From the NCBI GenBank assembly GCA_031281485.1, contig JAITFI010000053.1:1-32866 (forward strand): a DNA stretch of 32,866 nucleotides. The letters run 5' to 3'. Every line of letters begins with the position of its first letter. The stretch's first letter is position 1. This DNA comes from Chitinispirillales bacterium (GTDB taxonomy: Bacteria; Fibrobacterota; Chitinivibrionia; Chitinivibrionales; Chitinispirillaceae). The notes beneath the pieces are model-generated. The model was not told the origin of the DNA, did no database searches, and saw nothing but the letters and a program-made list of their open reading frames with translations. The position numbers and the translations under genes are program-made. Below are positions 5,913 through 23,157 of this stretch, in pieces.

Positions 5913-8318
5913 CTAAATTATCTTCCATATACCGGCCGCAAAATCCCGAACAAGCCTATCTGTTGAGAACCAACCCATTTTAGATATATTTTTCAAGCAC
6001 CTGCTGCCCCAAGCCTCTTTGTCTTTGAACAGGGCGTCAACAGCCTCCTGCTTATTAATATAATCTGCAAAATCCAATAATGCAAAATTTCTGTCGGAAT
6101 CTTTTAAGGAGGATATCAGAGGATAGACGGCGTGGCCGCCCGGTATCGTCCGCAGGTGCGAGTCGAGCATGGTGAATATCTCGCGCAGGTTCTCGCTTTC
6201 GGCCAGCAGTTTCCCCGGGTTATACGAGCCGTTCATCGCCAAAAGCTCCTCCGCGCTCTTCCCGAAAACGAAGAGGTTTTCCTCGCCGAGGCGCTTCATC
6301 AGCTCCAGATTCGAGCCGCCGCGGCTCGCTATAGTCTGCGCCCCGTTGAAGGCGAATTTCATGTTGAACGTACCCGCCGGTTCGAAGGCCGCCGTGGATA
6401 TCTGCTCGGAGAGGTCGGCGGCGGTGACCAGCTGCTCGGCCCAATCCACGCTGAAGTTCGGTATGAAGACCACGCGCATCTGCTCGCGGACGGCGGCGTC
6501 TTCGTTGACTATGCCGGCGGCGATGTTGATCAGGTGGATGATCTGCTTGGCCAAAAAGTCGGACGGGGAGGCCTTGCCGGCAAATATGTGGGCGCGGCGG
6601 CAGGCGAGGTTCTCGCCCCTCTTTATTTTAAGGTAGCAGTGCAGTATGTACAAGATGTGAAGCACATGGCGTTTGGAGGTATGGATAGGCCGGCAGTTGA
6701 TATCGAAAAGCATGACCGGGTCTACCGCCACACCGACCTTCTCCCTAAGCTCCGCGCAAAGCTCCGACTTAGCCCTGCTCTTAACGTTCACGAAGCCCTT
6801 TAGTATCTCGGGGCTTTCGGCGTAGAACTCGAGCTTGGAGAGCTCCTCCGGACGCCGCACCCACCCGTCGCCGATAGGACGCGAGATAAGGGCTGAGAGC
6901 GGCCTATTGGCGCAGTAGAGCCAGCGGCGGTGCGAGACCCCGTTCGTCTTGCAGTAGAACTTCTCCGGATACTGGCTGTAATAGTTCGGGAAGAGGTGCT
7001 TTTTGAGTATCTCCGTGTGAGCGGCGGAAACGCCGTTAACCGAATTTGAGCCTAGCACCGCCATATCGGCGAAGCGTATCCGCTTGACCTCGCCCTCCTC
7101 GATGAGCGAGAGGTTGCGCAACAGCTCCAAATCGTTACACCCTCGGGAACGGATAAGATCCAGATGCTCTAAGTTTATATCGAAGATTACCTGCATTATC
7201 CGGGGCAGAAGCTGCGTGATCTTGAAAACCGGCCACGTCTCTACGTGTTCGCGCTGCACGGCGCTGCTTGAGTACGAGAAGATGCTCTGCGTCATCTTCC
7301 AAGCCTCTTTCCACTCCATGCCTTCTTGATCTACAAGCAGGCGCATCATCTCCGGGATGGCGAGCGCGCAACGGCTGCCGTTGAGGTGGATGGCGGTCTT
7401 GGCGCCCAAGTCCGCGATGTTGTTGCCGTTCTGCTTGTGGCGGCGAATAATATCTTGAATGACCGCGCTCACCAAGAAATACTGCTGGCGGATCCTGAGA
7501 TCGTGGGCGCGGCGGACGTCCTCGTCGGGGAAGAGCACTTTGGTTATGCGCCCAGACTGCGACTTCTCCTCGCAGGCCCTGACATAGTCGTTGTGGTTTT
7601 GGTAGTCGGGCAAGAACTCCTCATTCGCCCGAGCCGACCAAAGGCGCAGCGTGTTTACCACCTCGTTGCGGTATCCGACTATGGGGATGTCGTAGGGGAC
7701 GGCGTAAACCTCCTCGGCGTTTTTCCACACGTGCGGCCCGAGCGGCTTGTCCGGGTCGACGGGCGAGCTCTCTCCGGAAAATCTCACGACGCTTTCGTAC
7801 TCCGGCCTCACGATCTCCCACGGGTGCCCCTTGTGAAGCCAATCGTTCGGGAACTCCACCTGCACGCCGTTTCTTATCTCCTGACGGAACTGCCCGTAGT
7901 CGTAGCGCAACCCGTAAGCCATGGAGGGCAGACCCAAGGTCGCCATAGACTCCAAGACGCAGGCCGCCGTGCGGGCCTTGCCGCTGTTGCCCAAGTCAAA
8001 CTCGTCGTCCCTTTCGAAAAGCTCCTTTACGGAGATGCCCAAGGAGCCGACCGCCTCCGTAAAGACCTCCTCTATGCCGAGATTGACCATGTTGTTGTAG
8101 AGGCTCTTGCCAAGCATGTACTCCATGGAGAGTATGTATATCCTGCGCTTGCCGATGTACCCGCGCTGCGTGTTGATCCAGTGGTCGACAAACTCGCTGC
8201 GCACCGCGTAAGCCAGCGCCATGAACTTGTCGTACACGGTGGCGGTCATTTCGTCCTTCACAAGAAAGTTGCGAAGGTAGCGGACGTACATGTTTTGCAG
8301 GTATTTATAATCCATCAT
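5913..8318 (-). CDS. Glycogen phosphorylase homologue (GT35), probably catalytically altered
   Basis: An 801-residue GT35 protein of normal length, aligned by eye from end to end with classical glycogen phosphorylase (rabbit numbering in brackets). Kept: the PLP lysine K654 (K680), E646 (E672), SMEYMLG (E88), K549 (K574) and the NGVSAAH and KTNGV blocks. Changed: the glycine loop is GNSGKAR where GNGGLGR is expected (110-116); HLNGSRCALAIPE replaces QLNDTHPALAIPE (D339 to G, H341 to R); the active-site H377 is S352; the RIHEYKR block is PIHTSKR, so the phosphate-binding R569 is P544 and Y573 is S548; EASGTGNMKF is EPAGTFNMKF. The fold should persist but normal phosphorolysis looks unlikely. 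It is the first gene of a run with enzyme I. ATG ATG at 8318/8315, with a weak ribosome site (GGAGAG, 11 bases away). Confidence 0.9.
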   Translation of the reverse strand: MMDYKYLQNMYVRYLRNFLVKDEMTATVYDKFMALAYAVRSEFVDHWINTQRGYIGKRRIYILSMEYMLGKSLYNNMVNLGIEEVFTEAVGSLGISVKELFERDDEFDLGNSGKARTAACVLESMATLGLPSMAYGLRYDYGQFRQEIRNGVQVEFPNDWLHKGHPWEIVRPEYESVVRFSGESSPVDPDKPLGPHVWKNAEEVYAVPYDIPIVGYRNEVVNTLRLWSARANEEFLPDYQNHNDYVRACEEKSQSGRITKVLFPDEDVRRAHDLRIRQQYFLVSAVIQDIIRRHKQNGNNIADLGAKTAIHLNGSRCALAIPEMMRLLVDQEGMEWKEAWKMTQSIFSYSSSAVQREHVETWPVFKITQLLPRIMQVIFDINLEHLDLIRSRGCNDLELLRNLSLIEEGEVKRIRFADMAVLGSNSVNGVSAAHTEILKKHLFPNYYSQYPEKFYCKTNGVSHRRWLYCANRPLSALISRPIGDGWVRRPEELSKLEFYAESPEILKGFVNVKSRAKSELCAELREKVGVAVDPVMLFDINCRPIHTSKRHVLHILYILHCYLKIKRGENLACRRAHIFAGKASPSDFLAKQIIHLINIAAGIVNEDAAVREQMRVVFIPNFSVDWAEQLVTAADLSEQISTAAFEPAGTFNMKFAFNGAQTIASRGGSNLELMKRLGEENLFVFGKSAEELLAMNGSYNPGKLLAESENLREIFTMLDSHLRTIPGGHAVYPLISSLKDSDRNFALLDFADYINKQEAVDALFKDKEAWGSRCLKNISKMGWFSTDRLVRDFAAGIWKII

Positions 8319-9111: not shown

Positions 9112-9143
9112 CAAAAAAAAGGGGCGGGTTTAAAACCCGCCCT
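9112..9143 (-). terminator. Rho-independent terminator of the glycan-utilisation operon
   Basis: On the minus strand a hairpin with stem GGGCGGG/CCCGCCC (extended by A-T pairs; 9122-9142) is followed directly by a run of T (complement of the A-run 9113-9120). It sits 30 bases past the GH51 stop codon at 9174 and before the HTH gene, and is the only clear terminator downstream of the eight genes that begin at 23068. Confidence 0.85.
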
Positions 9144-9173
9144 TGCGACATCAAAATCAATACTTTACAATCA

Positions 9174-12100
9174 TTACTCCAGCGTAATCGTGACCACCGA
9201 GTGCGCCGGCATAGTTAGTTTCATTCCCGGCTTCACATCAACAGACTCATCCGTAGGCCCTTTCTTGGCGTTTTCCGCGCTAAGTTGGTGTTTCTTGGCC
9301 TTGCCTTGGAAGCCCGGAATGTTGACCGTAATATCCGCCGCGCTCTTGGGGTGCTTGTTGACGATCATGAGCGACTTTTTCTTTCCGTCGAGCGTGTAGT
9401 AACTCGAAACGCGGTCGTTACCGGTATTTGACTCTAAGAGCGACCCGCGGCCCAAGCTGTGGCTCGCCATTTTGAACGCCCAGTACGACGGACGCGCCAC
9501 ATTGTCGCCGTCCGGCGCGCCAGTACGCGAGAGGTAGCCGTAGTCGCCGCCCTCCGGGGTGATGCTGTTGTGAACATCCCAATACGACGCTTGTTCTATG
9601 TTGTGATGCGTCAGCATACCAAGGTAGTCGGCCACAAACAAAGCGTTGACTATGCCAAGCGTCTGGGGGCCCGGTTTAAAGTCCACCGAGTTCCACTCCG
9701 TAAGCCAGACCTCGTACTTCTTGCCGGCGGCGCCGAATTGCTCAAGCTGCTTGCGCACGCCCGGCAGGATCTCGTTCAAGGTCTGCGGCGCGGCCAAAAG
9801 CCCCGCGTCGTTCTCCTGACCGGTACCTTGCGGGTAGTGGTGGACGTTTACGCCGTCGACCACGTCTTTGAGCAACTCAAAGCTCTTCTTGTTCCAGTCG
9901 CCCTCAAGCATCCAAACCGCCGTAACGACGATGCTCGGATCCACCGCTTTCATCTGCTTGGCGAACTCCCTAGCGCGTTTGCCGTACTCCTCGGGCGTGC
10001 AGTGGTTGGCGTGCCAGTCGCCGTAGAGCTCGTTGCCGATCTCCCAATACTTAACGTTGGCCTTCTTGACCTTGTTTACATGGTTAACCCATTTGGCCGC
10101 CTCCTCCGGCGTGCCGGTGCCGAAGTTGATCGTGATCATAGGCGTCGTGTTCGTCTTCTTGCAGAACTCCAAGAACTCGTCCGTGTCTACCATCCAATCC
10201 TTTTTCTTGAGCACCTCCTCCCAGTGATCCTCGTCTGCGCGTAAACCGCCCGGATAGCGCAGGACGTGGTGGTTGACGTCCTTCACAAACTTCTCGGTGG
10301 CGGGGAGCAGCAAGTCACCGTCCCACAGCGCGACGTTTATGCCGAAGAGTCCCTCGTTTATCTTCTTCGTGACCTCCTTGTCGCTGCCGGTGATAGTTAC
10401 CGCGACCTTGGCCGGATCCTCTTTCACCTTGGCGACCCTGTCGTTGGTCAGTCTGATATTGTCGACCTTAAAGGTGCCGCGCGACCCCTCGCCGGCGGGT
10501 TTGAAGTCGAGCACTATGACGCCGTCAAGGTCGAACTTGCCGTTCTGCACAGCGTCTTCCGGCTGGTAGTAGGGGAACTTGGCAAAGTTCTTGAACGGGA
10601 CGACAACCTCCGTCCATCCCTTGTTGCCGCCCGCCGGCGCCACAAATATCTCGTTGCCCTTGTCCTGAATTTGGACGGTTATAGGCTGATAGGGCTTATC
10701 GGTGTAGAAGTCGAATTTAAGACCCCAGTGCTTCGTCCAATCGCGTTGATCGGCGGGGCGGTTCTGATCCCTGTAGTTGAATAGCACGTCGACCCAGTCG
10801 CCCAGTCTGTAGGTAATCTCCAGCGCCTTGCTGCCGCCACCGGGCGCGCCCGACTCGGAATACTTGAACGAGACCTCGGACTTTGGACCGTTTGAGGACT
10901 CCCACTTCTGATCGTTCTCCGTCTCAAAGTCGTGCAGCTTGACCTCGGGAGCGTTGGACTTGAACGCGTTCCAGTAGTCGTCCGGATTCACGTAACCGGG
11001 GATCTCCTCAATGAAAGAGACATCCTTCACGTAGAAAGTGACCGGGTCTTCGGCGGGGACCTTGTTCTCGCCCTTGCCTACGGAGAAACGCACCTCTTGT
11101 ATCTTCGTCCAATCCACTTTGCCGGAGACCTCGGCGTTCTTGCTGTCGTCCCAGTACAGCCCTTCCGGCCTGAAGGAGCGGATAGGCACCATGTAGTATT
11201 TCCACACAGGCTCGATCTTGGCGATGTCGGCGAGAAGCAGCTTCGTCTGCACCTTGACCTCCACGCCGGCGCTGTTCTTGCCCTGATTGTCCAAGAGGCC
11301 GATGCCGATATTGCTCACGCCCTCGCCGCCGCGCCCCCAGAAAGCGATACCGGCCGCCTTCGCCGATCTGGCGTTCGTCAAGTTGGCGAACTTGCCGTCG
11401 CCCAAAGAAACCGTGACGCCGGAGTATTCGTTGCCGTCCATGTAGCTGGCGAAAATCGGCGCGCCGGACTTCGTTTTCTGAACTTTGAAAGCGGTCTTGC
11501 CGCCGTAAACGTATGCGAATCCGACCGGATCGCCGCCCGTCACAACCTTGTCCGTCTCTTTGACGGCGGGCTTGCTCGACACCGGGATATCTTCAAGCAC
11601 CTCATCCTTATCATCCCAATACTTGACATCTTCGACGACCTTGGCTTCAAAGACGTTGCTTACAATAAAGATGTCGTCCACCCAAATACGGAAAGAGGGG
11701 TTTTCATTCTTCTTTATCTCTATACGGAACTCGCAGACCTTGTCCCACTGGAAAGGTTCCGGCACCTCAACGCGTTTCTTGGCGTCCCAGAAGACGCCGC
11801 GCTTGCCGAAATCGACGAGCGGAATGCTGATGAGCGTCCAATCCTTCGTGATGCCGCCGTAGTTGTTAATCGGGAGGCGCACGACGGTCTTCTTGCCGTC
11901 GCCGTTTTCATCATCTACAAGCGCCGCCATAGCGATTTCGCTGCCGTTAGCGCCCTTCACCCAAAACTGCAACGCGCCGGTGGAGATGTAGGGGTTGAGG
12001 TCGTACATCATATTGTACAGGCAGACGGATCCGCCCGAATAGTCGTTGGCGGCCAAGTCAAACTGCAACGCCACCTCGCCGTTCTTGCCGGAGTTTTCGG

Positions 12101-12332
12101 GGATGTACACCTTGGATTCGTCCGGGTAGACGTACTGGTATCCGCCGGAGACGAAGTCTTCGTCAAAGAAGCGGTATACCACCTGCGACTCGCCGGACGA
12201 CGCCTTTTTGGCGGCAGGCGCGCCGGTATCGACAGCCGCGCCGCCGACGGGCCTTAACTGTATGCCGCAACCGATAATAAACGCGGCGACCGTAAACAAA
12301 CCGGCTATGACAACTCCTGTCCTTCTATTCAT
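9174..12332 (-). CDS. Multimodular GH51 lipoprotein, Cel51A/endoglucanase F-like
   Basis: A 1052-residue exported glycoside hydrolase. The signal peptide ends in a lipobox (FIIGC, C22), so it should be lipid-anchored in the outer membrane or at the surface. Three beta-sandwich modules of CBM11/CBM30 type follow (about 50-225, 270-440 and 465-630; each has a YSGG, YSGV or comparable turn and ends in a VDD/VKD/VDN strand). The catalytic (beta/alpha)8 domain spans about 650-960: WEIGNE (763-768) gives the acid/base E768 and WLTEWNS (876-882) the nucleophile E879, the clan GH-A/GH51 pattern. A C-terminal beta domain completes it. Length and layout match what is known of Fibrobacter succinogenes Cel51A, an endoglucanase, though many GH51 enzymes are arabinofuranosidases. 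AGGAG lies 7 bases before the ATG. It is the last gene of the operon. Confidence 0.88.
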   Translation of the reverse strand: MNRRTGVVIAGLFTVAAFIIGCGIQLRPVGGAAVDTGAPAAKKASSGESQVVYRFFDEDFVSGGYQYVYPDESKVYIPENSGKNGEVALQFDLAANDYSGGSVCLYNMMYDLNPYISTGALQFWVKGANGSEIAMAALVDDENGDGKKTVVRLPINNYGGITKDWTLISIPLVDFGKRGVFWDAKKRVEVPEPFQWDKVCEFRIEIKKNENPSFRIWVDDIFIVSNVFEAKVVEDVKYWDDKDEVLEDIPVSSKPAVKETDKVVTGGDPVGFAYVYGGKTAFKVQKTKSGAPIFASYMDGNEYSGVTVSLGDGKFANLTNARSAKAAGIAFWGRGGEGVSNIGIGLLDNQGKNSAGVEVKVQTKLLLADIAKIEPVWKYYMVPIRSFRPEGLYWDDSKNAEVSGKVDWTKIQEVRFSVGKGENKVPAEDPVTFYVKDVSFIEEIPGYVNPDDYWNAFKSNAPEVKLHDFETENDQKWESSNGPKSEVSFKYSESGAPGGGSKALEITYRLGDWVDVLFNYRDQNRPADQRDWTKHWGLKFDFYTDKPYQPITVQIQDKGNEIFVAPAGGNKGWTEVVVPFKNFAKFPYYQPEDAVQNGKFDLDGVIVLDFKPAGEGSRGTFKVDNIRLTNDRVAKVKEDPAKVAVTITGSDKEVTKKINEGLFGINVALWDGDLLLPATEKFVKDVNHHVLRYPGGLRADEDHWEEVLKKKDWMVDTDEFLEFCKKTNTTPMITINFGTGTPEEAAKWVNHVNKVKKANVKYWEIGNELYGDWHANHCTPEEYGKRAREFAKQMKAVDPSIVVTAVWMLEGDWNKKSFELLKDVVDGVNVHHYPQGTGQENDAGLLAAPQTLNEILPGVRKQLEQFGAAGKKYEVWLTEWNSVDFKPGPQTLGIVNALFVADYLGMLTHHNIEQASYWDVHNSITPEGGDYGYLSRTGAPDGDNVARPSYWAFKMASHSLGRGSLLESNTGNDRVSSYYTLDGKKKSLMIVNKHPKSAADITVNIPGFQGKAKKHQLSAENAKKGPTDESVDVKPGMKLTMPAHSVVTITLE

Positions 12333-12357
12333 TGCACATCTCCTCTCTTATCTTAAA

Positions 12358-14475
12358 TTAAAATTTTACCGTTAAATAAACTTCAGGTTGCGTTGCGGTA
12401 TATTTTAACGTCTTCGGTTTGCCGGTATTCTCGTCAACACCCACCGGGCCCTCGCCGGAAAGCATTGTCAGCTTGACCGTCAACGCGCCGCCGTCGGCGA
12501 CCTTGTAGCCGAAACCTATGCCGAGATTGCTAAACGCGTATTCGGCGTCAGGAATACCCGACACGTTCTCTTCGCTCTTAATAGATGTTGCAAGCTGCTG
12601 GTAGCCGACCAAGAAACTGAAGCGCTGCACAAAATTGTAATTGAGCTCAACGCTTATAAGGTTGCTCGCGACGTCATGTTTGTAAGGGGCCGCGGTCGGC
12701 GGCACATTTCTTCCGTTATCGACAATACGAACATCGCCTATAGTGGAGTTGTACATCATATATGAGCCGCCGATCTTGAGTGAAGGGCCGACCGCCGGAA
12801 CGAACTTGGCGATATCGACGATAGCGCCGCCGCCCGCCGTCATGTACTCATTAATCGGAATTTTTGTACGTATAGTACCCGCCTCACCCGGAATGACGAC
12901 TCCCGGATCGTTCGGATCAATCGTTTCGTCGGTACTATACGGATACTCATTAGTCCACTCCCCTACTCCATTCAACATGGCCACTCGCGCGCCGATTTTA
13001 AAGGCCTCGTCCAAGAACGATCCGTCCAGCTTAACAACCGGCCCGCTGCGGTCGGCGGTGGCAAACCCGCCGGGGAGAGCGTCTTGGAAAACATTTGTCG
13101 GAAGTTTCGCTATCCCATTCTTATCGGCCGGAAATATAACGTTTGTGTACGCGTTCTTAGTGTACGGCCTCGATCCGCCGAAGTACTGCGACGGCGCGTA
13201 CTTGAATACCGACCTATACATCGCGTCAAACGGATTTATCAAACCAAGACCCGACAAGCCGTTCTCGTTGTTCATAATAGACCGCTGTAAGAACGAAGGG
13301 CTCTGCGCGGCCACGTTTATGAACGCCGAGTCGTTGAGGATATAATCCGCGGATATGCTAAACGCGTTGACATCATCAAAATTCAACTTGACGGAGAGAC
13401 CGGCGTTTATCCCCATACCGTCAACGGAGCAATCTTCTACGGTCGAATCCCTGCCGGCGGCGTTTTTCAACATGTTTTGATACTTATACGATGAAAAAGC
13501 CGCTTCCGCGTTAACGCCGATATGCACGAAATCGTCCGACATAAACGCGCGGTTGTCGAGATTCAGCCGGACGGCAAAAACATTGTTCGACGTCGCGTGA
13601 AACTTCGCGGTGTCCTCAAACTCACCGTTCATGATTATGCCGGTCTTATCAAAATCCTCTCCCCTATAGCTATCGACATGGTCGAATACGCTTATATTGC
13701 TTACGCCAAAACCGGCGCCCTTTATAATCTGCGTCGCGAGGTTAACGCCGACTAAATATTTATCGTACTTCGAGTCCCAATACATGCCGTTCACGCGCGT
13801 TGTATCGTCCGGAAACATTCCCGGCGCGATGGGCGCCGACTCGCCGGTACCGCGCGTCGCCAAACGGGCCCCGAAAACATCCACATCCAACTCATTCAAA
13901 TAAGGATAAACTTCCGCCTTAAACTCAACGTTCGCGCCTTGCAAGACACGTTTGTTTTCACCCAAAAACACCTCGGACATAGCAAGCTCGCGCCCCTGCG
14001 CGAATATCTCCGGCTCAAATAGGAGGTCAATGTCGGGAGACCAAAGAGTGAGCGGGGTCAGCTTCTTCTTATAGTCGCCCAAATTGTACTTAAGTATTCC
14101 CTGCGCCACCGATCCGTCGATACTCAGCCAACGGGTCGTTATAGGGTTTTGCACATCAGAGAAGAAGTTTCTCCAATCCTGATGAAGCCGAAATATCGCC
14201 CGCGCGCTAAGAGCGGTATTGGGCCTCGCCACAATGTCGAAGTCCACGCTCGTGTACTCCGCGCTCTCATTTTTCTTGCCGAAATCAGCCACGGCGTCTC
14301 CGTCGAGCGACGAATTCAAAAACTGCGACCGGAATTCCCCGCCGAAGTGAATTCCCGCCTTGGACATCACGCGGTCTATCTGCGCGCTAAGCCCGTCAAC
14401 CCTCTCCTCAAGAGAGCTTTCCGCCGCCAATGCGCACACCGACAGCGCCGCCACAAAAAGGAAAATTTTTTTCAT
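12358..14475 (-). CDS. Outer-membrane beta-barrel protein with N-terminal coiled coil
   Basis: A 705-residue putative porin-like protein. The start at 14475 (MKKIFLF) gives a typical signal peptide cleaved near ALA; a longer form from the ATG at 14541, which also has a G-rich ribosome site, would add 22 basic residues. The mature N-terminus is a short heptad region (LEERVDGLSAQIDRV) and the rest is alternating amphipathic strands ending in TVKF, with the terminal phenylalanine typical of Bam-inserted barrels. Length suggests a large barrel with long loops. No TonB box or plug motif was seen, so it is not SusC-like. It lies 25 bases before the GH51 gene and 80 after a second barrel with the same layout. 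A role in passage of cello-oligosaccharides is inferred from context only. Confidence 0.75.
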   Translation of the reverse strand: MKKIFLFVAALSVCALAAESSLEERVDGLSAQIDRVMSKAGIHFGGEFRSQFLNSSLDGDAVADFGKKNESAEYTSVDFDIVARPNTALSARAIFRLHQDWRNFFSDVQNPITTRWLSIDGSVAQGILKYNLGDYKKKLTPLTLWSPDIDLLFEPEIFAQGRELAMSEVFLGENKRVLQGANVEFKAEVYPYLNELDVDVFGARLATRGTGESAPIAPGMFPDDTTRVNGMYWDSKYDKYLVGVNLATQIIKGAGFGVSNISVFDHVDSYRGEDFDKTGIIMNGEFEDTAKFHATSNNVFAVRLNLDNRAFMSDDFVHIGVNAEAAFSSYKYQNMLKNAAGRDSTVEDCSVDGMGINAGLSVKLNFDDVNAFSISADYILNDSAFINVAAQSPSFLQRSIMNNENGLSGLGLINPFDAMYRSVFKYAPSQYFGGSRPYTKNAYTNVIFPADKNGIAKLPTNVFQDALPGGFATADRSGPVVKLDGSFLDEAFKIGARVAMLNGVGEWTNEYPYSTDETIDPNDPGVVIPGEAGTIRTKIPINEYMTAGGGAIVDIAKFVPAVGPSLKIGGSYMMYNSTIGDVRIVDNGRNVPPTAAPYKHDVASNLISVELNYNFVQRFSFLVGYQQLATSIKSEENVSGIPDAEYAFSNLGIGFGYKVADGGALTVKLTMLSGEGPVGVDENTGKPKTLKYTATQPEVYLTVKF

Positions 14476-14555
14476 GTCAAACAGCCTTTCTTGCTTTGAT
14501 ATGATATTTCGGTTTAGTTTACTCGTTTTTTTTATTTTCATCGTTTCACCCCCCA

Positions 14556-17363
14556 TTAAAACCACGTTTTAATTTCAAGAGAGAAAACCCACGTTCCCCA
14601 ATCGTTCTTATCCTGAGCGGTAAAATCCGTCACGGGCCGTTGCCCGTCTGCCGGACGACTTTTGTTCTCTTCACGCTGCGCCTGATTCACTTTTTCGTAA
14701 TACTCATTCAAGCCCTTGTCCTCATGAGTCACATACTTGACGCGTCCGTGCAACCCCACACGCTCGAGCATATCCCAGTCAAAACCGAGCCCGTAGGCCA
14801 TGTCGACGTAGTTGATGGGAACATTTACAAAATTATCCGGTTTGACACCCGAGGCGGTCAACTCCGCCTTATTTCCGGCCGTATTTATGTAAGTCAGCGT
14901 CGTAGGATTAACTATTCTGCCGTCGTTGGTATTCGTACTTTTGACGCGTATCATCCACGCGTCCCGCGCGCGCCAATTTTCATAACCAAAAAGCCCCAAC
15001 AAATAGAAACTCTTATGAAGCGCTATCGCCGGCTCAAGCCTTACATACATTGACCACATAAGCATCTCTTTCGCATCGTCGGAAAACGCCAACGGTTTCA
15101 CCGAACTTGAAATTCCGTGAAGCCCGACGTAACCGCCCACAAACAAATCTCTCTTGTAACCGAGAAACGCGCCTATGTCGTAAGCCGCGTCAAGCTCAAG
15201 ATTAAACGTATATTTCTTATTTTCCGGCACCCAAGACGAAGATGTGCTTAACGTAGTATCCCACACAAATTCCGTCGCGCTGTCCGGTTTGGAGGGATCG
15301 CCGTAAACCGCTTTGTAACCGCCGCTGAAAGACTGGTTCAATATTGTGGACGACGCGCTGTCTCTGGTAATTTCATAATAACCATAGCTCACGCCCGGAC
15401 GAAACGTATTTAAATGCCAGTTATTGTACGCGTCCGCCGCTGATTTATACGGGACAAATCCCTCCATCATGGCTAAAAAATCGCTCCTCAACCCGCCTGC
15501 GCCCGGTCCGGCGACCGCGCGCCAATCATTGTTCGTGGAATAAGAAGAGGCGTGCGCAAAACTCTCATCCCCCAACCTGCCTTTATAGTTCCTTCCCCTC
15601 GTTTTAACCGAGTTATCCACAATACCGTTCCCCCATCTGTTGTAAGAACTGTGGAAAAAAGAGAACATATCCGCCCCGTTAAGGCGATACGGGAAGAACA
15701 AGATGTCCCGTCCCTCCTCAATATTAAAGTGCTGGCCGTATTTGAGCCTCAAGTGTCCGTATCCCGATAATTTAGGGGTGAACGTCAGGTTCAAACCCGC
15801 CATATTCTGCGCGTACGGAGACCCCTCGCCGCGGGCGATAAACTTGCCGGCGCCCACCATGTTTGATCCATACGCGAAAAACGCGTCCTGAGGCACGGCG
15901 AAGGAAAACGGCGAGTAAAATCCCTTACTGATATACGCGATATCCGCCTCTACGGGCAAAAAGCCGTTGTTGTAACCCAGCTTTGTGTAAAAAGCTGGGA
16001 CGAAACCGCCGCCAACGACACCCTTGTTATTATAGTACTCCGGATGAGATCCCGAAATTCCGCCGGATATTTCGGCATCAACGGCATCCCCGCTCGTTCT
16101 ATACCCCAATCGATCTCTATCGGTACGTGTCGAGGACGTATCGTAAAACCACACGGTATCAACTTTACTTAACGCCACATCGGCGTGTATTGTGAACTTA
16201 TCGCTTATAGAACCCTTTATATCGGTGGAAATTATTTTAGGTTCCTTGACAAATATTGAATCTTTGCCGCCAAACTCGACAATCAGCGGATATTTACGCT
16301 CGTAGTTGGAGCTGTTACGGGCTACCCACGCGTTATCATTGGACACATACAAAATATCGTCAGTGTAATTAATGCCGACGTAGTTGAGTCCCCAAATCAT
16401 GTCCCCAAACATCTTCGCCTTCGCGAGACGGGCGTGAATAACGTGGCGGTATGAATCGCCCATGCCGTGCCCCTTTGCCGGAAACGGACCCTCCGCGCCG
16501 TCGGCGTAACCCAAATCGCCGCCGAAATCGACATATTCGCGCTCGAAGTTGTCGTAACGCTCAAACGTCCCGTAAACAAAGTTGGCGTAAATATCCGCCG
16601 GAAGGTTGATGCTCTCTACGTTTATGCCGTTGAAAGGCTTCTTGTTCCAAGCCGCGCGCCCGGACTTTTCGCCCTTGGCGATATTGTACTCGTAATACCT
16701 CGCTATAGGCTGCTCCACCTCAAAGGGCAGATACTCCCACGCGAAAGTACGCGGCTGCGCCTTCCAAACCGTGAGCGGGGAGGCCTCCGTCCACAAGGTA
16801 TTTCCGAGCTTCACCCAAAAGGAGGCCGGAACGGTGCGCACCGCAATGCCGGCGCACATATCCTCGTGGATCGTTATGCTGTTGCCGACCTTATCGTTTC
16901 TGTACTGGTACGGCAAGAAACCGTCGTCGTTGGGACCGTTGCTTGTACCGGTCTCACTATAATCGTGATATCCGACAAGCGTATGCTGGAACCCGAGTTT
17001 CGCCCACAAAACCGTATTTCTCCCGGCCCGCGCCACCATACCGAGGCGGAACAAGTTGTCGTTCCCCTCCCATCCGGACTGTATGTAGCTTCTGTCGGCC
17101 AGCATATACCCGGGAGCGTCATACCCCAAATCGTGGTACTGCACCTTAAGCCGCGCCTCGCCTGAAAACGAGACCGGGCTTGACCCGCCGGAGACAAGCG
17201 TCGACTGAACCTTGCCCTCAAGGTCGTCGACCGAACCGGCCAATCTGTCAACCCTGTCGGACAGCGACTCCGCATCCGTAACGGCAGGCATGGCAACGGC
17301 GAACATCGCAACCGCCGCAGCTATACGAGTTATGCGGACCATTCGTTTGTTAAAAATAGCCAA
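14556..17363 (-). CDS. Large outer-membrane beta-barrel protein with N-terminal coiled coil
   Basis: A 935-residue predicted outer-membrane protein. A TTG start at 17363 is chosen because AGGAGG lies 5 bases upstream, while the ATG seven codons in has no ribosome site. The signal peptide ends at about residue 31 (VTDA|ES). A heptad segment (LSDRVDRLAGSVDDLEGKV) is followed by VSFSGEARLKVQY, the first barrel strand, and aromatic-girdle strands to the C-terminal KTWF. The layout (signal, short coiled coil, SGE or GGE strand, barrel) matches the next gene, so the two may share ancestry or partner with one another. It lies 80 bases after the ABC ATPase stop and appears to belong to the same operon. 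No close named family is recognised. Adhesion to substrate is an alternative to porin function. Confidence 0.75.
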   Translation of the reverse strand: MAIFNKRMVRITRIAAAVAMFAVAMPAVTDAESLSDRVDRLAGSVDDLEGKVQSTLVSGGSSPVSFSGEARLKVQYHDLGYDAPGYMLADRSYIQSGWEGNDNLFRLGMVARAGRNTVLWAKLGFQHTLVGYHDYSETGTSNGPNDDGFLPYQYRNDKVGNSITIHEDMCAGIAVRTVPASFWVKLGNTLWTEASPLTVWKAQPRTFAWEYLPFEVEQPIARYYEYNIAKGEKSGRAAWNKKPFNGINVESINLPADIYANFVYGTFERYDNFEREYVDFGGDLGYADGAEGPFPAKGHGMGDSYRHVIHARLAKAKMFGDMIWGLNYVGINYTDDILYVSNDNAWVARNSSNYERKYPLIVEFGGKDSIFVKEPKIISTDIKGSISDKFTIHADVALSKVDTVWFYDTSSTRTDRDRLGYRTSGDAVDAEISGGISGSHPEYYNNKGVVGGGFVPAFYTKLGYNNGFLPVEADIAYISKGFYSPFSFAVPQDAFFAYGSNMVGAGKFIARGEGSPYAQNMAGLNLTFTPKLSGYGHLRLKYGQHFNIEEGRDILFFPYRLNGADMFSFFHSSYNRWGNGIVDNSVKTRGRNYKGRLGDESFAHASSYSTNNDWRAVAGPGAGGLRSDFLAMMEGFVPYKSAADAYNNWHLNTFRPGVSYGYYEITRDSASSTILNQSFSGGYKAVYGDPSKPDSATEFVWDTTLSTSSSWVPENKKYTFNLELDAAYDIGAFLGYKRDLFVGGYVGLHGISSSVKPLAFSDDAKEMLMWSMYVRLEPAIALHKSFYLLGLFGYENWRARDAWMIRVKSTNTNDGRIVNPTTLTYINTAGNKAELTASGVKPDNFVNVPINYVDMAYGLGFDWDMLERVGLHGRVKYVTHEDKGLNEYYEKVNQAQREENKSRPADGQRPVTDFTAQDKNDWGTWVFSLEIKTWF

Positions 17364-17443
17364 ACGGACCTCCTATCTTTAATCTTTAAATAGTATTTTT
17401 TTATCTTCAGACAACGTTTTTATTCCGGCGAATACAGCGGTCC

Positions 17444-18226
17444 TCACCTTTTAATCCATTCTTTATGTATTTCCGGAATATCTTCAAGCAGCTGTATTGT
17501 ATGCTCGCTCTTGGGGCGCAGCGTCACATCGTCGGGCGCGCCTTGTTCCACTATCTTTCCCTTGTGCATTATGAAGAGGCGGTCGCTGACGTAGTAGGCG
17601 AGACCGATGTCGTGCGTGATGAAGACTATCGTCATGCTTAACTCTTGTTTCAGCTTCATCAAATAATCCAAAATATTGGCCCGCACACAAGCGTCGACCA
17701 TGCTTGTCGGCTCGTCGGCTATCAGCACCTTAGGCTTCAGGACAAAGATTCTTGCCAAAAGCATCCGCTGCATCTGGCCGCCGGACAATTCAAAGGGGTA
17801 CTTCCCCTCAAGCTCGGAGGGTTTGACATTGACGGCAAGGAGCGCTTGGTCCACGCGCTCCTCCATCTCGCTGTTGGAGGGTTTTTCTTTATATATGCCG
17901 AAAGCCGCTTTGAGTTGCGAGCGGATCGTGAAGAACTGGTTGAAGCAACTGAACGGGTCTTGGAAGACCGCCTGCACCTCGCGCCAATGGACGTTGTAGT
18001 CGGTGATGGGGGCGCCCTTGTAGGTGAACGTGCCGGAGGTCGGGTGGTGCAAGCCGAGCATCATCTTGGCTAAGACGCTCTTTCCGCAGCCGGAACCTCC
18101 CACGAGCGAGACGATCTCGCCGTCCTTAATGTTGAACGACACGTCGTCCACGGCTTTCACTAATTTCTTACCGTGCCCGAACGTGCATACGCTGTTCTGC
18201 GCCTCAAATAGTATGTCATTCTGCAT
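17444..18226 (-). CDS. ABC transporter ATPase, OppF/DppF type
   Basis: A 260-residue nucleotide-binding subunit of an oligopeptide/oligosaccharide-class importer. Walker A GGSGCGKS lies near residues 43-50; the Q-loop is VFQDPFS; the signature is LSGGQMQR; Walker B is VLIADEPTS; and the switch histidine is in FITHD. GAGG lies 7 bases before the ATG at 18226. The start overlaps the end of the partner ATPase by 11 bases, implying coupled translation. It is shorter than many OppF proteins because the C-terminal Cys-containing oligopeptide-transporter extension is missing. In context it energises uptake through the two permeases upstream. Confidence 0.9.
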   Translation of the reverse strand: MQNDILFEAQNSVCTFGHGKKLVKAVDDVSFNIKDGEIVSLVGGSGCGKSVLAKMMLGLHHPTSGTFTYKGAPITDYNVHWREVQAVFQDPFSCFNQFFTIRSQLKAAFGIYKEKPSNSEMEERVDQALLAVNVKPSELEGKYPFELSGGQMQRMLLARIFVLKPKVLIADEPTSMVDACVRANILDYLMKLKQELSMTIVFITHDIGLAYYVSDRLFIMHKGKIVEQGAPDDVTLRPKSEHTIQLLEDIPEIHKEWIKR

Positions 18227-19187
18227 AATCGCACCTCACTTGCCTGTCGCCCACGATTCTTATCTCCTGTTTGTTCTGCTTGCACTCCGGTTTCGCCTGC
18301 GGGCAGCGCTCGGCGAAGCGGCATCCTGTTATGGGGTTGGCCAAATTGGGCGGCGCGCCCTCTATGGCCGTCGGCTTGCGCTGCTTCTGGCCCGGCTCGG
18401 CGCTGAGCATAGCGCCCATCAGCGCTTTGGTATACGGGTGGCGGGGGTCGAAGACCACCTGCTCCGCCGTGCCCTTCTCGACGATCTCTCCGGCGTACAT
18501 GATGGCTATGTTGTTGGCCACGTGGCGCAAGAGCGGCAGTTCGTGCGTGATGAAGATCATCGTCGAGAAGATGCCCTTTTCAAGCAGATCGAATATCATC
18601 TTTATGACGACCTTCTGCGTCGTGACGTCAAGCGCGGAGGTCGGCTCGTCGGCTATCACCATCTGCGGGTTTAAGAGCGTGGAGATGCCGATGACCGACC
18701 TCTGCCTCTCTCCGGCGGTGAGCTGGATCGGGTGTGAGTTGAGCACCTTGTTCGTATCCATCCCGAAGAGATCGAACCGCTCTTTCAAGCGTTCGTAAAT
18801 CTGCTTCTTGTCGACGCCCTTTATGTGGGCGGCCATCACGTCGGCCGCGATGTCCTTGACCTTGCGCGTGGGGTTCAGAGCGTTGAACGCGCCCTGAGGT
18901 ATCATAGAGACCTTGCGCGAAAGGATATTCGCGCGGACATCCTCAGGGGAGCGATTCATGAGCGACTCGCCGCCCACCCGCACATCCCCGCTTGTGGGGT
19001 AGAGCGGCGGGATGAAAAGCCCCATTAGCCCGTTCACAAGCGTCGACTTGCCGCAACCCGACTCACCCGCTATCCCCAATATCTCCCCTTGCTCCATAGT
19101 GAAAGAGACGTCGGTGACCGCGTGTATCTTCTGACCGAAGCGGGTCAGATAGTGCAAACTCAGTTTATCTACCTCAAATATAGCCAT
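18216..19187 (-). CDS. ABC transporter ATPase, OppD/DppD type
   Basis: A 323-residue ATPase partnering the OppF-type subunit. Walker A is GESGCGKS and Walker B is MVIADEPTSALD. The signature is LTAGERQR where LSGG(M/Q)RQR is usual, so one of the two composite ATP sites may be weakened, as in many heterodimeric ABC pairs. The C-terminal extension has the four-cysteine motif of the family (CRFAERCPQAKPEC, with a further C near the end), which in DppD-like proteins binds an iron-sulphur cluster. It lies 24 bases after the OppC-type permease and overlaps the next gene. Confidence 0.9.
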   Translation of the reverse strand: MAIFEVDKLSLHYLTRFGQKIHAVTDVSFTMEQGEILGIAGESGCGKSTLVNGLMGLFIPPLYPTSGDVRVGGESLMNRSPEDVRANILSRKVSMIPQGAFNALNPTRKVKDIAADVMAAHIKGVDKKQIYERLKERFDLFGMDTNKVLNSHPIQLTAGERQRSVIGISTLLNPQMVIADEPTSALDVTTQKVVIKMIFDLLEKGIFSTMIFITHELPLLRHVANNIAIMYAGEIVEKGTAEQVVFDPRHPYTKALMGAMLSAEPGQKQRKPTAIEGAPPNLANPITGCRFAERCPQAKPECKQNKQEIRIVGDRQVRCDYAE

Positions 19188-19211
19188 AGCGTTTTCCGTT
19201 CCCCTCCCCCC

Positions 19212-20045
19212 CTACTTACGCAGGCGGGGGTTGAAGACACCCTCCATGGAGGTATTGATAAGGTAAAGGGCAAAGACGATCAATGTGATGACGACCGTGG
19301 CGGGGATGAACGCCCACCATATACCGTCGCCGAGCGCGCCCGTGTTCTTCGCCTGATTCAGAATGGTCCCGAGCGACACCGTGTCCATCGGCCCGAGGCC
19401 GATCATGGAGATGGCCGCCTCGGAGAGTATGCCCGACGACACCTGCAAGATGAACACCATGAACACGTACGAGAATATGTACGGCAGGATGTGCACCAAA
19501 AGCACGCGCAACGTATTGTCGCCGTTCAGTTTTGCAAGCGATATGTGATCCTTGCTCTTGAGCGCCGCGGACTGGGCCCTCACGGCGCGGGCGCTCCACG
19601 TCCAAGTCGTCATGCCGATGATCACCCCGATAAGGGTGAGCGACCGCCCCTCGCTGAAACTCGCGCTTATAAGGATAAGCACCACGAACGAGGGTATGAC
19701 GACGAAGAGGTTCGTCACCATATTGAGTATATCGTCCACAACCCCGCCCCTGAAACCGCCGTAGATGCCTATCAGGGTGCCTATGGTAGTGGCTATGACC
19801 CCGGCCAAAAAGCCGACGAAGAGCGACGACCTGAGCCCCAGAAGCAAGAGCGAAACGTAATCGCGCCCGAGGTCGTCCATCCCCAAGATAAACTTGGCTG
19901 TGGGAGCGTCGTACTGGGCGCCCACGCGGGCCGTCGTTATCTTGTAAAAGAGCGGGCCGACAAGCGCGATAAGCAGCGTCAGCAAAAAGATCGACGCGCC
20001 TATTACAAACATCGGAGACTTCAATAAATTTTTCAGCAGTTTCAT
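19212..20045 (-). CDS. ABC transporter permease, OppC/DppC type
   Basis: A 277-residue inner-membrane permease. The ATG at 20045 is chosen (MKLLKNLLKSP); a TTG two codons upstream at 20051 would overlap the previous stop and is possible. The order is a short N-tail, TM1, a periplasmic segment containing FILGMDDLGRD (the family's typical LGTDxLGRD site), then four or five more membrane helices with the cytoplasmic EAA loop (LNGDNTLRVLLVHILP). It is translationally close to the OppB-type gene and completes a heterodimeric channel. Confidence 0.9.
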   Translation of the reverse strand: MKLLKNLLKSPMFVIGASIFLLTLLIALVGPLFYKITTARVGAQYDAPTAKFILGMDDLGRDYVSLLLLGLRSSLFVGFLAGVIATTIGTLIGIYGGFRGGVVDDILNMVTNLFVVIPSFVVLILISASFSEGRSLTLIGVIIGMTTWTWSARAVRAQSAALKSKDHISLAKLNGDNTLRVLLVHILPYIFSYVFMVFILQVSSGILSEAAISMIGLGPMDTVSLGTILNQAKNTGALGDGIWWAFIPATVVITLIVFALYLINTSMEGVFNPRLRK

Positions 20046-20047
20046 TG

Positions 20048-21124
20048 TCAAACCCCCTTACCCATCTGAAGACCGGCTTTGACGCGGGGATCGAGGAACC
20101 CGATCAATATGTCAACCGTAAAGTTCGCTATGAGCACCGACACGGTGACAATGAGCGTACACCCCTGAATCATCGGATAGTCGTTGTTCTGAATGGCCGT
20201 GAGCATCGCCATACCGAGCCCCGGATAGGAGAAGATCATCTCGGTTATGAGCGCCCCCCCGATCATCGTGCCCAAACTCAGGGCGAGGCCGGTGATCTGA
20301 GGCAGCATGGCGTTGCGGAAGAGGTAGGTCAAAATCTTCCCCTCCTTGAGCCCGAGCCATTTGGCGTACTTTATGTAGTCCGTCCCAAGTTCGTATATGC
20401 CCATCGACCTCATACCGATAGCCTGCCCGCCCGCCAAGATCAGGAAGATCGAGAAGAAGGGCAGCACGTAGTGGTAAGCCGCCGACGAGAAGAAGGCCAT
20501 TGAGAAGGAGGGCATGACGCTGTTGGCGTAACCGCCCATCGCCGGAAACCACGGCAACAGCACCGCGAAGTAGTAAACGAGCAGCATTCCGAACACGAAG
20601 AACGGGAAGGAGCTCAAAATCAGGGCGAACGGGAAGAAGACCTTGTCGAACACGCCGCGCCTGTACGCCGCCAGCGCCCCGAGTATGTTGCCGACTATCC
20701 ACCCGAAGAGGATCGTCGGAAGCTGCAGTGCGATAGTCCAGGGCACCGCCTCCTTGATCACATCGACCACCTTTTTGGGGTACTTCTGGAACGAGGTCCC
20801 GAGGTCGCCCATAAGGCACATCTTTATGTAGTTGCCGAACTGCTCAAGCCTTCCGGCCTTCATCGGCTTCCCCTCGGCGTCGCGCAGCAATTGACCGTCT
20901 TTTCCGACTTTGGCGAGGCCGAACTCTTGGAGGTACTTCTCCTCCTTCTTACGGGCGTCCTCATTGCTGAGGCCCGTGGCGGCCTTGCCCATGATGATGT
21001 CGACAGGGTTGTTCTTCCCAAGGCGCGGTAGGAAAAAATTAATCGTCACCGCGACCAAAAAGGTCAGGAAGTACCACCCCGCCCTCATCAGAACAAACCT
21101 GAGTGTAGGATACTGTTTAAGCAT
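20048..21124 (-). CDS. ABC transporter permease, OppB/DppB type
   Basis: A 358-residue permease with TM1 at about residues 13-33, a long periplasmic region of about 90 residues that includes the family motif GDLGTSF, and five further helices. The EAA loop is present (YAKWLGLKEGKILTYLFRNA), as is the C-terminal GFLDPR characteristic of this family. The start has AAGGGGAG just upstream. It follows the binding-protein gene after 108 bases that hold a hairpin, a common arrangement that lets the binding protein be made in excess over the membrane parts. Confidence 0.9.
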   Translation of the reverse strand: MLKQYPTLRFVLMRAGWYFLTFLVAVTINFFLPRLGKNNPVDIIMGKAATGLSNEDARKKEEKYLQEFGLAKVGKDGQLLRDAEGKPMKAGRLEQFGNYIKMCLMGDLGTSFQKYPKKVVDVIKEAVPWTIALQLPTILFGWIVGNILGALAAYRRGVFDKVFFPFALILSSFPFFVFGMLLVYYFAVLLPWFPAMGGYANSVMPSFSMAFFSSAAYHYVLPFFSIFLILAGGQAIGMRSMGIYELGTDYIKYAKWLGLKEGKILTYLFRNAMLPQITGLALSLGTMIGGALITEMIFSYPGLGMAMLTAIQNNDYPMIQGCTLIVTVSVLIANFTVDILIGFLDPRVKAGLQMGKGV

Positions 21125-21172
21125 GGCTCCCCTTAAAATCAGTGTTTAAAAACAATCACGTTGGGATCAAAT

Positions 21173-21200
21173 GCGGGGGCTCAAAATTTTGAGTCCCCGC
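21173..21200. repeat. Intra-operon hairpin between binding protein and permease genes
   Basis: An inverted repeat of 14 bases per arm with one internal mismatch (GCGGGGGCTCAAAA with TTTTGAGTCCCCGC). No T-run follows on the minus strand, so it is not a standard terminator. Its position 32 bases past the binding-protein stop fits an mRNA-stabilising or attenuating structure. The outer ATGCGGGG/CCCCGC bases resemble module C of the dispersed repeats. Confidence 0.6.
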
Positions 21201-21232
21201 GACCGCATATTAGATACAATCACAACTCAATA

Positions 21233-23068
21233 TCATTTGACCGGTTGGAGATTCCAGAGAATCTTTGTGCTGGCCCCGACCCACGGCAACAGGGGCGGCG
21301 CGTACGGGTTCGCGCTCGTCGGCCAGCCCTTCCACGCCTTGCTGCTGAACTCGTAGAACTGCTCCGGCAAATAGCAGAGCGGGAGCGCCGGCTGGTCCTG
21401 CATGAATATCTTGTTCAACTCGCGGTACGCGGCTATCAAATCCTCTTCCTTATCAAGCGTCGGGATCTTTTTCAGCAACTCGTCGACTTTGGGGTTGTAA
21501 CCTTTATCCTTGGGGCTGTTGTAGCGGCCCTGATTTTCGTTCATCTTGTTGTCGCCGCCCACGGGCACCCAGTTGCGGGAGGACATGACCGACTCGAAAC
21601 GGTTCCACGGGAGCGACGGCGTGACCGACGCCGCGGGCTTGTGCATGATCAGGTCGAAGTTGCCCGACGGCAACGCCGGCCAATAGAGGCTGGCGTCGAC
21701 AGGCCCTTCGCGCACGTCCATGCCGGCGGCGCGCAAACCCTTCACCGCGATCTGAACCATGGCCTCCCAGTCGGACCAACCGGCGGGGACTGTGATCGAC
21801 AAAACAGGCAGCTTGTTCCCGGCTTTGTCGGTCATGTAGTCGAGCGTGCTGTCTTTGTCGCCTCTCTTGTATACGGACTTGTAACCGGCGTCGGCAAGAA
21901 TCGCTCTGGCCTTCGCGGGATCGTAAGCAACGCCGAACTCTTTAGCGTCGTCGGCGTTGAAGTACTTGCCCTCGAGCCCCTGATTCATGATGAGGCCGGG
22001 CTGCACGTCGGGGGCGTAGCCGGAAACGGCCAGCTCCTTGATATCGGCGTAACTGATGGCGGCGGCCATGGCGCGGCGGTACTGCGGGTCATTCAGCGGC
22101 GCTTTGGTCGTGTTTATCAGCAGCATGGGCATCGCGCCCGGAACAAAGTAGGGGGCTTCGTCGTACCATGTGCTCACCCCGTCCTTCTTCTTCAGCCATA
22201 TACGCGGCATAAAGGTCTGCGAGGCGTCGAGCTTGCCCTGCTGGAGGGCGATCGCGAAGTGGTCGTTATTCTTATATATAGGATGTATGATGTACTCGGG
22301 CGCGGGGAGCTTGCCGCCGTATATGGCCTCGTTGCCCCAATAATCGTCGCGGCGTTTGATCACGATCCTCTCGTTTGAGGAGTGCTCTATATTGTAGGGG
22401 CCGGATACGACCGGATCCTTGTCGATCTTCAGCTTTTGAACGGCGCTCAGGTCGTTCCCGTTATCGGCCAGAAGCTTCTCAAACACGTGGGACGGGACGA
22501 TGCGGATAGCCTGCAGGTGGTCGAGGATAACGAGCGGGTTGTTGCGCTTGGTCTTATCAACCATAAACGAGAGCCGTTCCACGCCGTCAACCGTCTCAAC
22601 CTTGATCTCGGAGATGAAGTCGATGGCGAAAGCGGTGGCCGCGCCCGGGAAACGGCGCCCCAGCTCAAAGACGAACTTTACGTCCGTGGAGGTAACCGGC
22701 TGCCCGTCGCTCCACATGGCCTTGGGGTTCAGGTCGACGACGACCTTGTCGTTGTCGCGGGAGACCAGCGTGCCGAGTAACGGCTCGAACTTTCCGTCTA
22801 ACGAGTTGTAAGTCAGAATAGTCTCGTACATGAGGTTGAACTTATCGCCGACCGGCCACGCCGCCTGCCAACTCTCAGCAATGGGGTTGAATGTGTTCGG
22901 GTCGCCCCACTGCGAACCGGCCAAGTAAAGCGTTTTGCTCCGCGCAAACCCGGACTCGGAACCGCCCGACGCCTCTCCGTCGCTATCCTTCTTTCCACCG
23001 CCGCAAGACACAAGGCCCAAAAGCGCCGCGCCGACAACCAACTTTTTAAGAACCGAGACACACTTCAT
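21233..23068 (-). CDS. Substrate-binding lipoprotein of an oligosaccharide/oligopeptide ABC importer
   Basis: A 611-residue family 5 (cluster C) extracellular binding protein. The ATG at 23068 follows GAAGAGG at 5 bases; an upstream in-frame ATG at 23101 lacks this. The lipobox LVSC places the lipidated cysteine at about residue 22, and a Gly/Ser/Asp linker follows. DPNTFNP near the mature start and MWSDGQPVTSTDVKF are the family signatures. The C-terminal half contains GWPTSANPYAPP, which recalls sugar-binding members such as the Thermotoga beta-glucan binding proteins more than peptide binders, but this is by memory. With a cellulase and two barrels downstream, cellodextrins or related beta-glucans are the likeliest ligands. 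First gene of the operon. Confidence 0.87.
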   Translation of the reverse strand: MKCVSVLKKLVVGAALLGLVSCGGGKKDSDGEASGGSESGFARSKTLYLAGSQWGDPNTFNPIAESWQAAWPVGDKFNLMYETILTYNSLDGKFEPLLGTLVSRDNDKVVVDLNPKAMWSDGQPVTSTDVKFVFELGRRFPGAATAFAIDFISEIKVETVDGVERLSFMVDKTKRNNPLVILDHLQAIRIVPSHVFEKLLADNGNDLSAVQKLKIDKDPVVSGPYNIEHSSNERIVIKRRDDYWGNEAIYGGKLPAPEYIIHPIYKNNDHFAIALQQGKLDASQTFMPRIWLKKKDGVSTWYDEAPYFVPGAMPMLLINTTKAPLNDPQYRRAMAAAISYADIKELAVSGYAPDVQPGLIMNQGLEGKYFNADDAKEFGVAYDPAKARAILADAGYKSVYKRGDKDSTLDYMTDKAGNKLPVLSITVPAGWSDWEAMVQIAVKGLRAAGMDVREGPVDASLYWPALPSGNFDLIMHKPAASVTPSLPWNRFESVMSSRNWVPVGGDNKMNENQGRYNSPKDKGYNPKVDELLKKIPTLDKEEDLIAAYRELNKIFMQDQPALPLCYLPEQFYEFSSKAWKGWPTSANPYAPPLLPWVGASTKILWNLQPVK

Positions 23069-23129
23069 GCAGACCTCTTCCGAATAGGGTTTATGTTTCA
23101 TGTTAAATTTTACAGAATCAAAACGTCTA

Positions 23130-23157
23130 ATTATAAATATATTATTTGCAACATCAA
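23130..23157 (-). promoter_or_regulatory. Promoter of the transporter/porin/cellulase operon
   Basis: On the minus strand TTGATG (complement of 23152-23157) and TATAAT (complement of 23130-23135) are separated by 16 bases, a good sigma-70-type pair about 60 bases before the binding-protein ATG. The 17-base block AATAATATATTTATAAT that ends in the -10 box is identical in the promoter of pal. Confidence 0.65.

Follow-up and report, generated by a model that had tools for sequence, protein, structure and literature searches.

A gene run in an uncultured Fibrobacterota bacterium linking two uncharacterised barrels with a Cel51A-like lipoprotein and a candidate oligosaccharide importer

Introduction

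Fibrobacter is a rumen cellulose digester, and the source of the DNA described here is an uncultured relative. The passage of cellodextrins across the outer membrane of Fibrobacter is described as unknown or not delineated (PMC6851124, PMC4668043), in agreement with an earlier note on this DNA that had called the step poorly settled in Fibrobacter relatives. For F. succinogenes S85, a TonB-dependent route was proposed because TonB/ExbBD rose on cellulose, with no candidate barrel named (PMC6851124).

Several described systems resemble parts of the locus. In the SusCD systems of Bacteroidota, an outer-membrane barrel, a surface glycan-binding protein and a surface glycosidase are encoded in one operon. 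The tmCBP-type importer of Thermotoga maritima combines two permeases and two ATPases with an SBP_bac_5 protein, tmCBP, in which the ligand is stacked by six tryptophans (PMC3850815). Cel51A of F. succinogenes (Fisuc_3111/FSU_0382), which has a signal peptide and a CBM30/CBM11/GH51 architecture, is a verified cellulase, with activity established for the S85 enzyme only (PMC3079729), and is constitutive in S85, without cellulose induction (PMC6204037). Cel51A and the CBM30 protein Fisuc_1525 were found in the S85 envelope on all substrates, and detection of the Opp ATPases Fisuc_1226/1227 was confined to growth on cellulose (PMC4619616). Exactly four genes separate Fisuc_1525 from the GH18 gene Fisuc_1530 (PMC3079729), the product of which is reported to be a cellulose-binding outer-membrane protein (PMC3079729, PMC4668043).

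Results and discussion

An eight-gene run with an Opp-class importer

The source genome is a 2.28-Mb, 68% complete Fibrobacterota assembly, and the window is the whole stretch of 32,866 nucleotides that was analysed. The open reading frame list and translations contain eight genes, all open and all on the minus strand, extending from 23101 to 9174 in the order SBP (binding protein), OppB, OppC, OppD, OppF, barrel A, barrel B and a CBM30-CBM11-GH51 lipoprotein. The widest intergenic gap, between SBP and OppB, is 108 bases. The eight-gene run with gaps of about 110 bases or less that the earlier note had described is thus confirmed, and Pfam agrees with its identification of the binding lipoprotein, permeases and ATPases and also identifies CBM30 and CBM11. 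The SBP (21233–23101; PF00496, E 3e-46) is an SBP_bac_5 lipoprotein with the lipobox LVSC and a likely ATG start at 23068. It is followed by an OppB-type permease (20048–21124; PF00528, E 1e-41), an OppC-type permease (19212–20051; PF00528, E 1e-21), an OppD-type ATPase with an oligo_HPY tail (18216–19187; PF00005 and PF08352) and an OppF-type ATPase (17444–18226; PF00005, E 1e-31).

The best PDB matches of the SBP, aligned over its whole length with E about 1e-62, are Thermotoga sugar-binding proteins, among them the cellobiose-binding tmCBP (2o7i, 3i5o, 4jsd, 4jso) and mannoside-binding proteins. Four of the six ligand tryptophans of tmCBP (Trp15, 380, 383 and 535) are identical in the alignment, as W65, W442, W445 and W607, while Trp510 is replaced by Phe582 and Trp426 is lost; these tryptophans are partly common to the mannoside-binding relatives. 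Because of the similarity to Thermotoga sugar-binding proteins and the four retained tryptophans, the sequence argues for a beta-linked oligosaccharide rather than a peptide as ligand, leaving glucan versus mannan unfixed. Two permeases and two ATPases stand beside a binding protein closest to sugar-binding ones, as in the T. maritima importer, to which the source run adds predicted outer-membrane barrels and a putative surface GH51 protein.

If the importer instead served peptides or other solutes, its position beside the barrel and GH51 genes would be incidental. The OppBCDF architecture suits such a function, and the NCBIfam models that match the importer components are named for oligopeptide or nickel transporters, but all score well under their cut-offs, with the OppA-type models far under theirs against the SBP (E 1e-6 to 1e-13). 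The earlier note had held that a peptide ligand would refute it; by sequence, the SBP falls among the oligosaccharide-binding members of the Opp class, away from peptide binders such as OppA/DppA. Given also the gene order seen in two families and the GH94 phosphorylase genes in the run of relatives, both described below, we regard a peptide importer as highly improbable.

A likely Cel51A orthologue and neighbouring phosphorylase genes

The last gene of the run (9174–12332, minus strand; PF21582, PF03425) encodes a lipoprotein with the lipobox IIGC, CBM30 and CBM11 regions, GH51 matches in the PDB and both catalytic glutamates, Glu768 and Glu879, so that the GH51 lipoprotein named previously is borne out. 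It is likely an orthologue of Cel51A because the two have the CBM30-CBM11-GH51 architecture in common and because it is ~48% identical to homologues in Fibrobacter-like genomes. The Cel51A gene of Fibrobacteraceae lies apart from the barrel genes, whereas here the GH51 gene closes the putative operon.

In five relatives (L054, L055, L057, L063 and L064), a GH94 phosphorylase gene lies 3′ of the GH51 gene on the same strand, and L054 has two. The L063 protein scores 1312 bits against cellobiose phosphorylase and 482 against chitobiose phosphorylase in the PDB comparison; the second GH94 protein of L054 also matches cellobiose phosphorylase best, by a less clear margin. L064, from another family, carries the whole series SBP-OppBCDF-barrel A-barrel B-GH51-GH94 on one strand. 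A GH9 cellulase gene follows GH51 in L065, and the source genome has two GH94 genes, located elsewhere than this run.

Two predicted plug-less barrels of an uncharacterised family

Barrel A (about 14556–17342, minus strand) and barrel B (about 12358–14475, minus strand) each have a signal peptide, a short coiled coil and an invariant C-terminal Phe, preceded by Trp in barrel A. The TTG start of barrel A at 17363 is probably seven codons too early, and barrel B likely starts at an ATG 30 codons inside the listed frame. The two are remote paralogues (hhalign 95.7%, E 9e-9) with a PLT-x-W motif in both. Neither has a Pfam family above cut-off, an NCBIfam model match or a sequence match in PDB profile searches, and we found no published description of the family, including under its S85 locus tags; as far as searched, it is uncharacterised.

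AlphaFold2 models, built on alignments of the source-stretch sequence and sequences of related loci only, predict a barrel of ~22–24 strands for barrel B (pTM 0.78, pLDDT 75) and a larger, poorly resolved barrel for barrel A (pTM 0.64, pLDDT 58), the latter at low confidence because its alignment is shallow and distant. Structural matches of both models are membrane barrels only: ushers, the barrel parts of TonB receptors, OprD/Occ, AlgE and DcaP. Like the porins DcaP and OprO/OprP, the two proteins would be barrels with a short N-terminal coiled coil, and DcaP is the top match of barrel A (Z 14.3), but they have no detectable sequence similarity to these porins and ~22–26 predicted strands rather than 16. 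Signal peptide, C-terminal aromatic residue and barrel fold together point to outer-membrane barrels, at low confidence for barrel A, and the two coiled-coil beta-barrels of the earlier description are accordingly retained as predicted membrane-barrel folds.

For barrel B, membrane-barrel matches reach Z 13–16, with the ushers FimD/PapC at the top (Z 16). Usher ancestry was not inferred, as 22-strand receptors, OprD and AlgE score almost as high. The barrels might nevertheless export the lipoprotein or secreted CBM/GH protein encoded next to them, or flip it to the surface, in a Slam- or usher-like manner, and their almost invariable pairing with one secreted CBM30-type protein would fit such a role. 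The usher match is generic, however; the likeness is one of fold only, a Pfam search at E 0.1 gave no usher family, and the Pfam-annotated neighbours in the source stretch include no chaperone or pilin genes. Export would also leave the linkage to an ABC importer and GH94 unexplained, and we consider it very unlikely.

Neither barrel has a Plug match in Pfam, and the models place the first strand after only ~40–55 residues. No SusD homologue was found in any of the eight genomes of the genus, which include the 68% complete source genome, and plug domains number 0–3 in each of these eight; SusD is present in 6 of 41 relatives. The description of the unit as one without SusC/SusD therefore stands. 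Unlike SusCD, the source run has no SusD and no plug domain, includes an ABC importer instead and is probably not TonB-driven. The two barrels and their CBM30 protein may together fill the role that SusCD has elsewhere, with proteins unrelated to it.

The barrel pair accompanies CBM30 proteins throughout Fibrobacterota

Of 167 phylum genomes, 145 encode a barrel A homologue and 145 a barrel B homologue, and no barrel A homologue was found on plasmids. Barrel A and a CBM protein resembling the GH51 gene product are both present in 143 genomes, both missing from 17 and found singly in 7 (Fisher p about 6e-17, a value that ignores shared ancestry and incomplete genomes). Outside Fibrobacteraceae, barrel B lies 3′ of barrel A in all 24 loci, and a CBM30-type gene adjoins the pair in 23 of them. 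In Fibrobacteraceae and Fibrimonadaceae, CBM30, barrel A and barrel B genes stand in tandem in 75 of 79 loci, mostly with a second barrel B, and a GH18-like gene is also present in 71. All 79 matches of this contig search belong to Fibrobacterota; the search used Fibrobacteraceae sequences only, and patterns specific to one subfamily have weak reach outside the phylum.

The partners beyond this set vary. In families f2 and f3, the CBM partner is a protein of ~640 residues with a CBM30/CBM11 region and no GH51 domain, and the partner in the f5 locus L062 resembles it, a likeness judged without a domain scan. SBP-Opp genes accompany 13 of the 24 non-Fibrobacteraceae loci, co-directionally upstream in 8, divergently in 4 and downstream in 1, and they lie close to the barrels in 3 of the 79 Fibrobacteraceae-type loci. 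The eight loci in which SBP-OppBCDF immediately precedes barrel A-barrel B-GH51 on the same strand include two of family f6 (L063 and L064). The phylum-wide core is therefore a CBM30 protein with barrel A and barrel B, and the ABC importer and GH51 domain are lineage-specific partners, the ABC linkage being recurrent. Of the barrel-barrel-GH51 synteny that the earlier note suggested looking for, the pairing of the barrels with a CBM30 protein holds across the phylum and the GH51 domain does not; its refuting case, barrels found elsewhere only with unrelated genes, is contradicted by their CBM30 partners.

In S85, locus numbering indicates that the barrel equivalents would be Fisuc_1526–1528, the identity of Fisuc_1526–1529 being inferred from that numbering. 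Like the source run, the Fisuc_1525–1530-type cluster has a CBM30 protein and tandem genes for proteins like barrel A and barrel B; unlike it, the cluster lacks GH51 and Opp genes and contains a second barrel B, one more lipoprotein and a GH18-like protein without the catalytic Glu. The CBM30 partner of Fibrobacteraceae has no lipobox and was ruled out as a lipoprotein, again unlike the source run. The Glu of the DxxDxDxE motif is missing from the GH18-like protein (for example L146:14530–15594) in 71 of 71 loci and is Gln in 54, and the protein is therefore probably a binding protein rather than a chitinase. Since the CBM30 protein has no lipobox and the locus ends in the GH18-like protein, substrates may differ between the modules.

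These observations bear on whether the barrels are instead mainly an adhesion or anchoring complex that holds the CBM30 (and GH51) proteins at the surface, while oligosaccharides enter through general porins or through the small number of TonB receptors. Adhesion is central to cellulolysis by Fibrobacter. What accompanies the barrels most constantly is a CBM30 binding protein rather than the ABC importer. The Fibrobacteraceae cluster also includes the GH18 protein that lacks its catalytic Glu, of which the S85 member, Fisuc_1530, is reported to bind cellulose (PMC3079729, PMC4668043). The co-directional, complete ABC importer in two families and GH94 in five loci suit uptake better, however, and anchoring would not need two or three large barrels. 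We judge adhesion unlikely, though less so than export.

A proposed route from surface cleavage to phosphorolysis

We favour, with moderate confidence, the reading that the run is a cellodextrin-uptake operon reaching from surface cutting to phosphorolysis. The CBM30-CBM11-GH51 lipoprotein, if it acts as Cel51A does, would grip single glucan chains at the outer membrane and cut them to cello-oligosaccharides. The two plug-less barrels would pass these into the periplasm, a role assigned to them because of their linkage and predicted fold, the absence of SusD and the small number of plug domains per genome, which leave few alternatives. The tmCBP-like lipoprotein, judging from homology and its ligand tryptophans, would bind the oligosaccharides and hand them to OppBC/OppDF, whose homology suggests ATP-driven import, and cytoplasmic GH94 phosphorylases would release glucose-1-phosphate from them. 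The sugar-type SBP, GH94 in five relatives and the likely Cel51A orthologue support the earlier proposal that the unit degrades and imports cellulose or a related glucan. The detection of Fisuc_1226/1227 on cellulose alone, and of Fisuc_1525 and Cel51A in the S85 envelope, also speaks for uptake (PMC4619616). As for the barrels being candidates for the outer-membrane step, their prediction as plug-less membrane barrels linked to CBM30 supports the proposal, while transport itself is inferred. Counting against uptake are the low pLDDT of barrel A, the lineage-specific ABC linkage, the constitutive expression of Cel51A, the differing module of Fibrobacteraceae, the overlap of the ligand tryptophans with mannoside-binding relatives and the TonB proposal for S85.

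A wider generalisation, which we advance tentatively and with more doubt than the reading of the single run, is that Fibrobacterota have a glycan-uptake class of their own, made of two or three plug-less, TonB-independent paralogous barrels and a CBM30 surface receptor, coupled to an Opp-class importer and cellobiose phosphorylase in some lineages and occurring in GH51, GH18-like and GH20 substrate variants. The importer and the enzyme belong to known families; the barrel family is, as far as searched, the uncharacterised part of the proposed glycan-utilisation operon. Barrels A and B, and their putative equivalents Fisuc_1526–1528 in S85, are the best concrete candidates for the entry of cellulose fragments through the outer membrane. 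If this is true, glycan uptake in a major group of gut cellulose degraders relies on machinery unrelated to SusCD, which would bear on rumen fibre digestion and on engineered cellodextrin import.

Variant copies of the module were also seen. Genomes of f11 have barrel A-barrel B-barrel B copies (L036 in G159, and L035, the second copy of G158), and L036 adjoins GH20 and GH18 genes, which suggests a module for a GlcNAc-containing glycan. In family f3 (L058, L059 and L060), a divergent SBP gene, SBP_bac_5 in L058, lies directly before barrel A. One F. succinogenes metagenome-assembled genome has barrel A and barrel B in a single 1635-residue open frame (L072:10001–14908), which is either a true fusion or an artefact of assembly.

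Flanking genes and transcription signals

A trpS gene (tryptophanyl-tRNA synthetase) lies upstream of SBP, and a glycogen phosphorylase gene (5913–8318) lies directly downstream of the GH51 gene. The latter is kept in genera g1 and g11 (L045, L046, L051, L052 and L053, besides the source stretch). Because trpS was seen upstream only in the source stretch and L051, its cotranscription with the run is not regarded as general. A gene for a DUF4914 protein occurs near the module in two genera (L050:16081–17958 and L056:1299–3173).

The earlier note had the run extend from one promoter to one terminator, of which the terminator stands. This intrinsic terminator (9122–9142, minus strand), a GC stem followed by U8, is convincing at the sequence level because a hairpin and U-run lie at the same position 3′ of GH51 in L045, L046 and L052 with a different stem sequence. 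The sigma-70-like promoter match TTGATG-16-TATAAT (23130–23157, minus strand) is weak evidence: it agrees with 10 of 12 consensus positions, matches of this type are common (18 found against 10.1 expected), and L051, the closest relative, does not retain it. As, in addition, no terminator was found in the interval between trpS and SBP, a single promoter is putative.

The SBP-OppB interval (21125–21232, minus strand) folds into a strong hairpin (-30.8 kcal/mol for the interval), and strong hairpins of unrelated sequence occupy the same gap in L045 and L052. This hairpin is likely an attenuator or mRNA stabiliser that tunes SBP relative to permease expression, and it may lower expression of the genes downstream.
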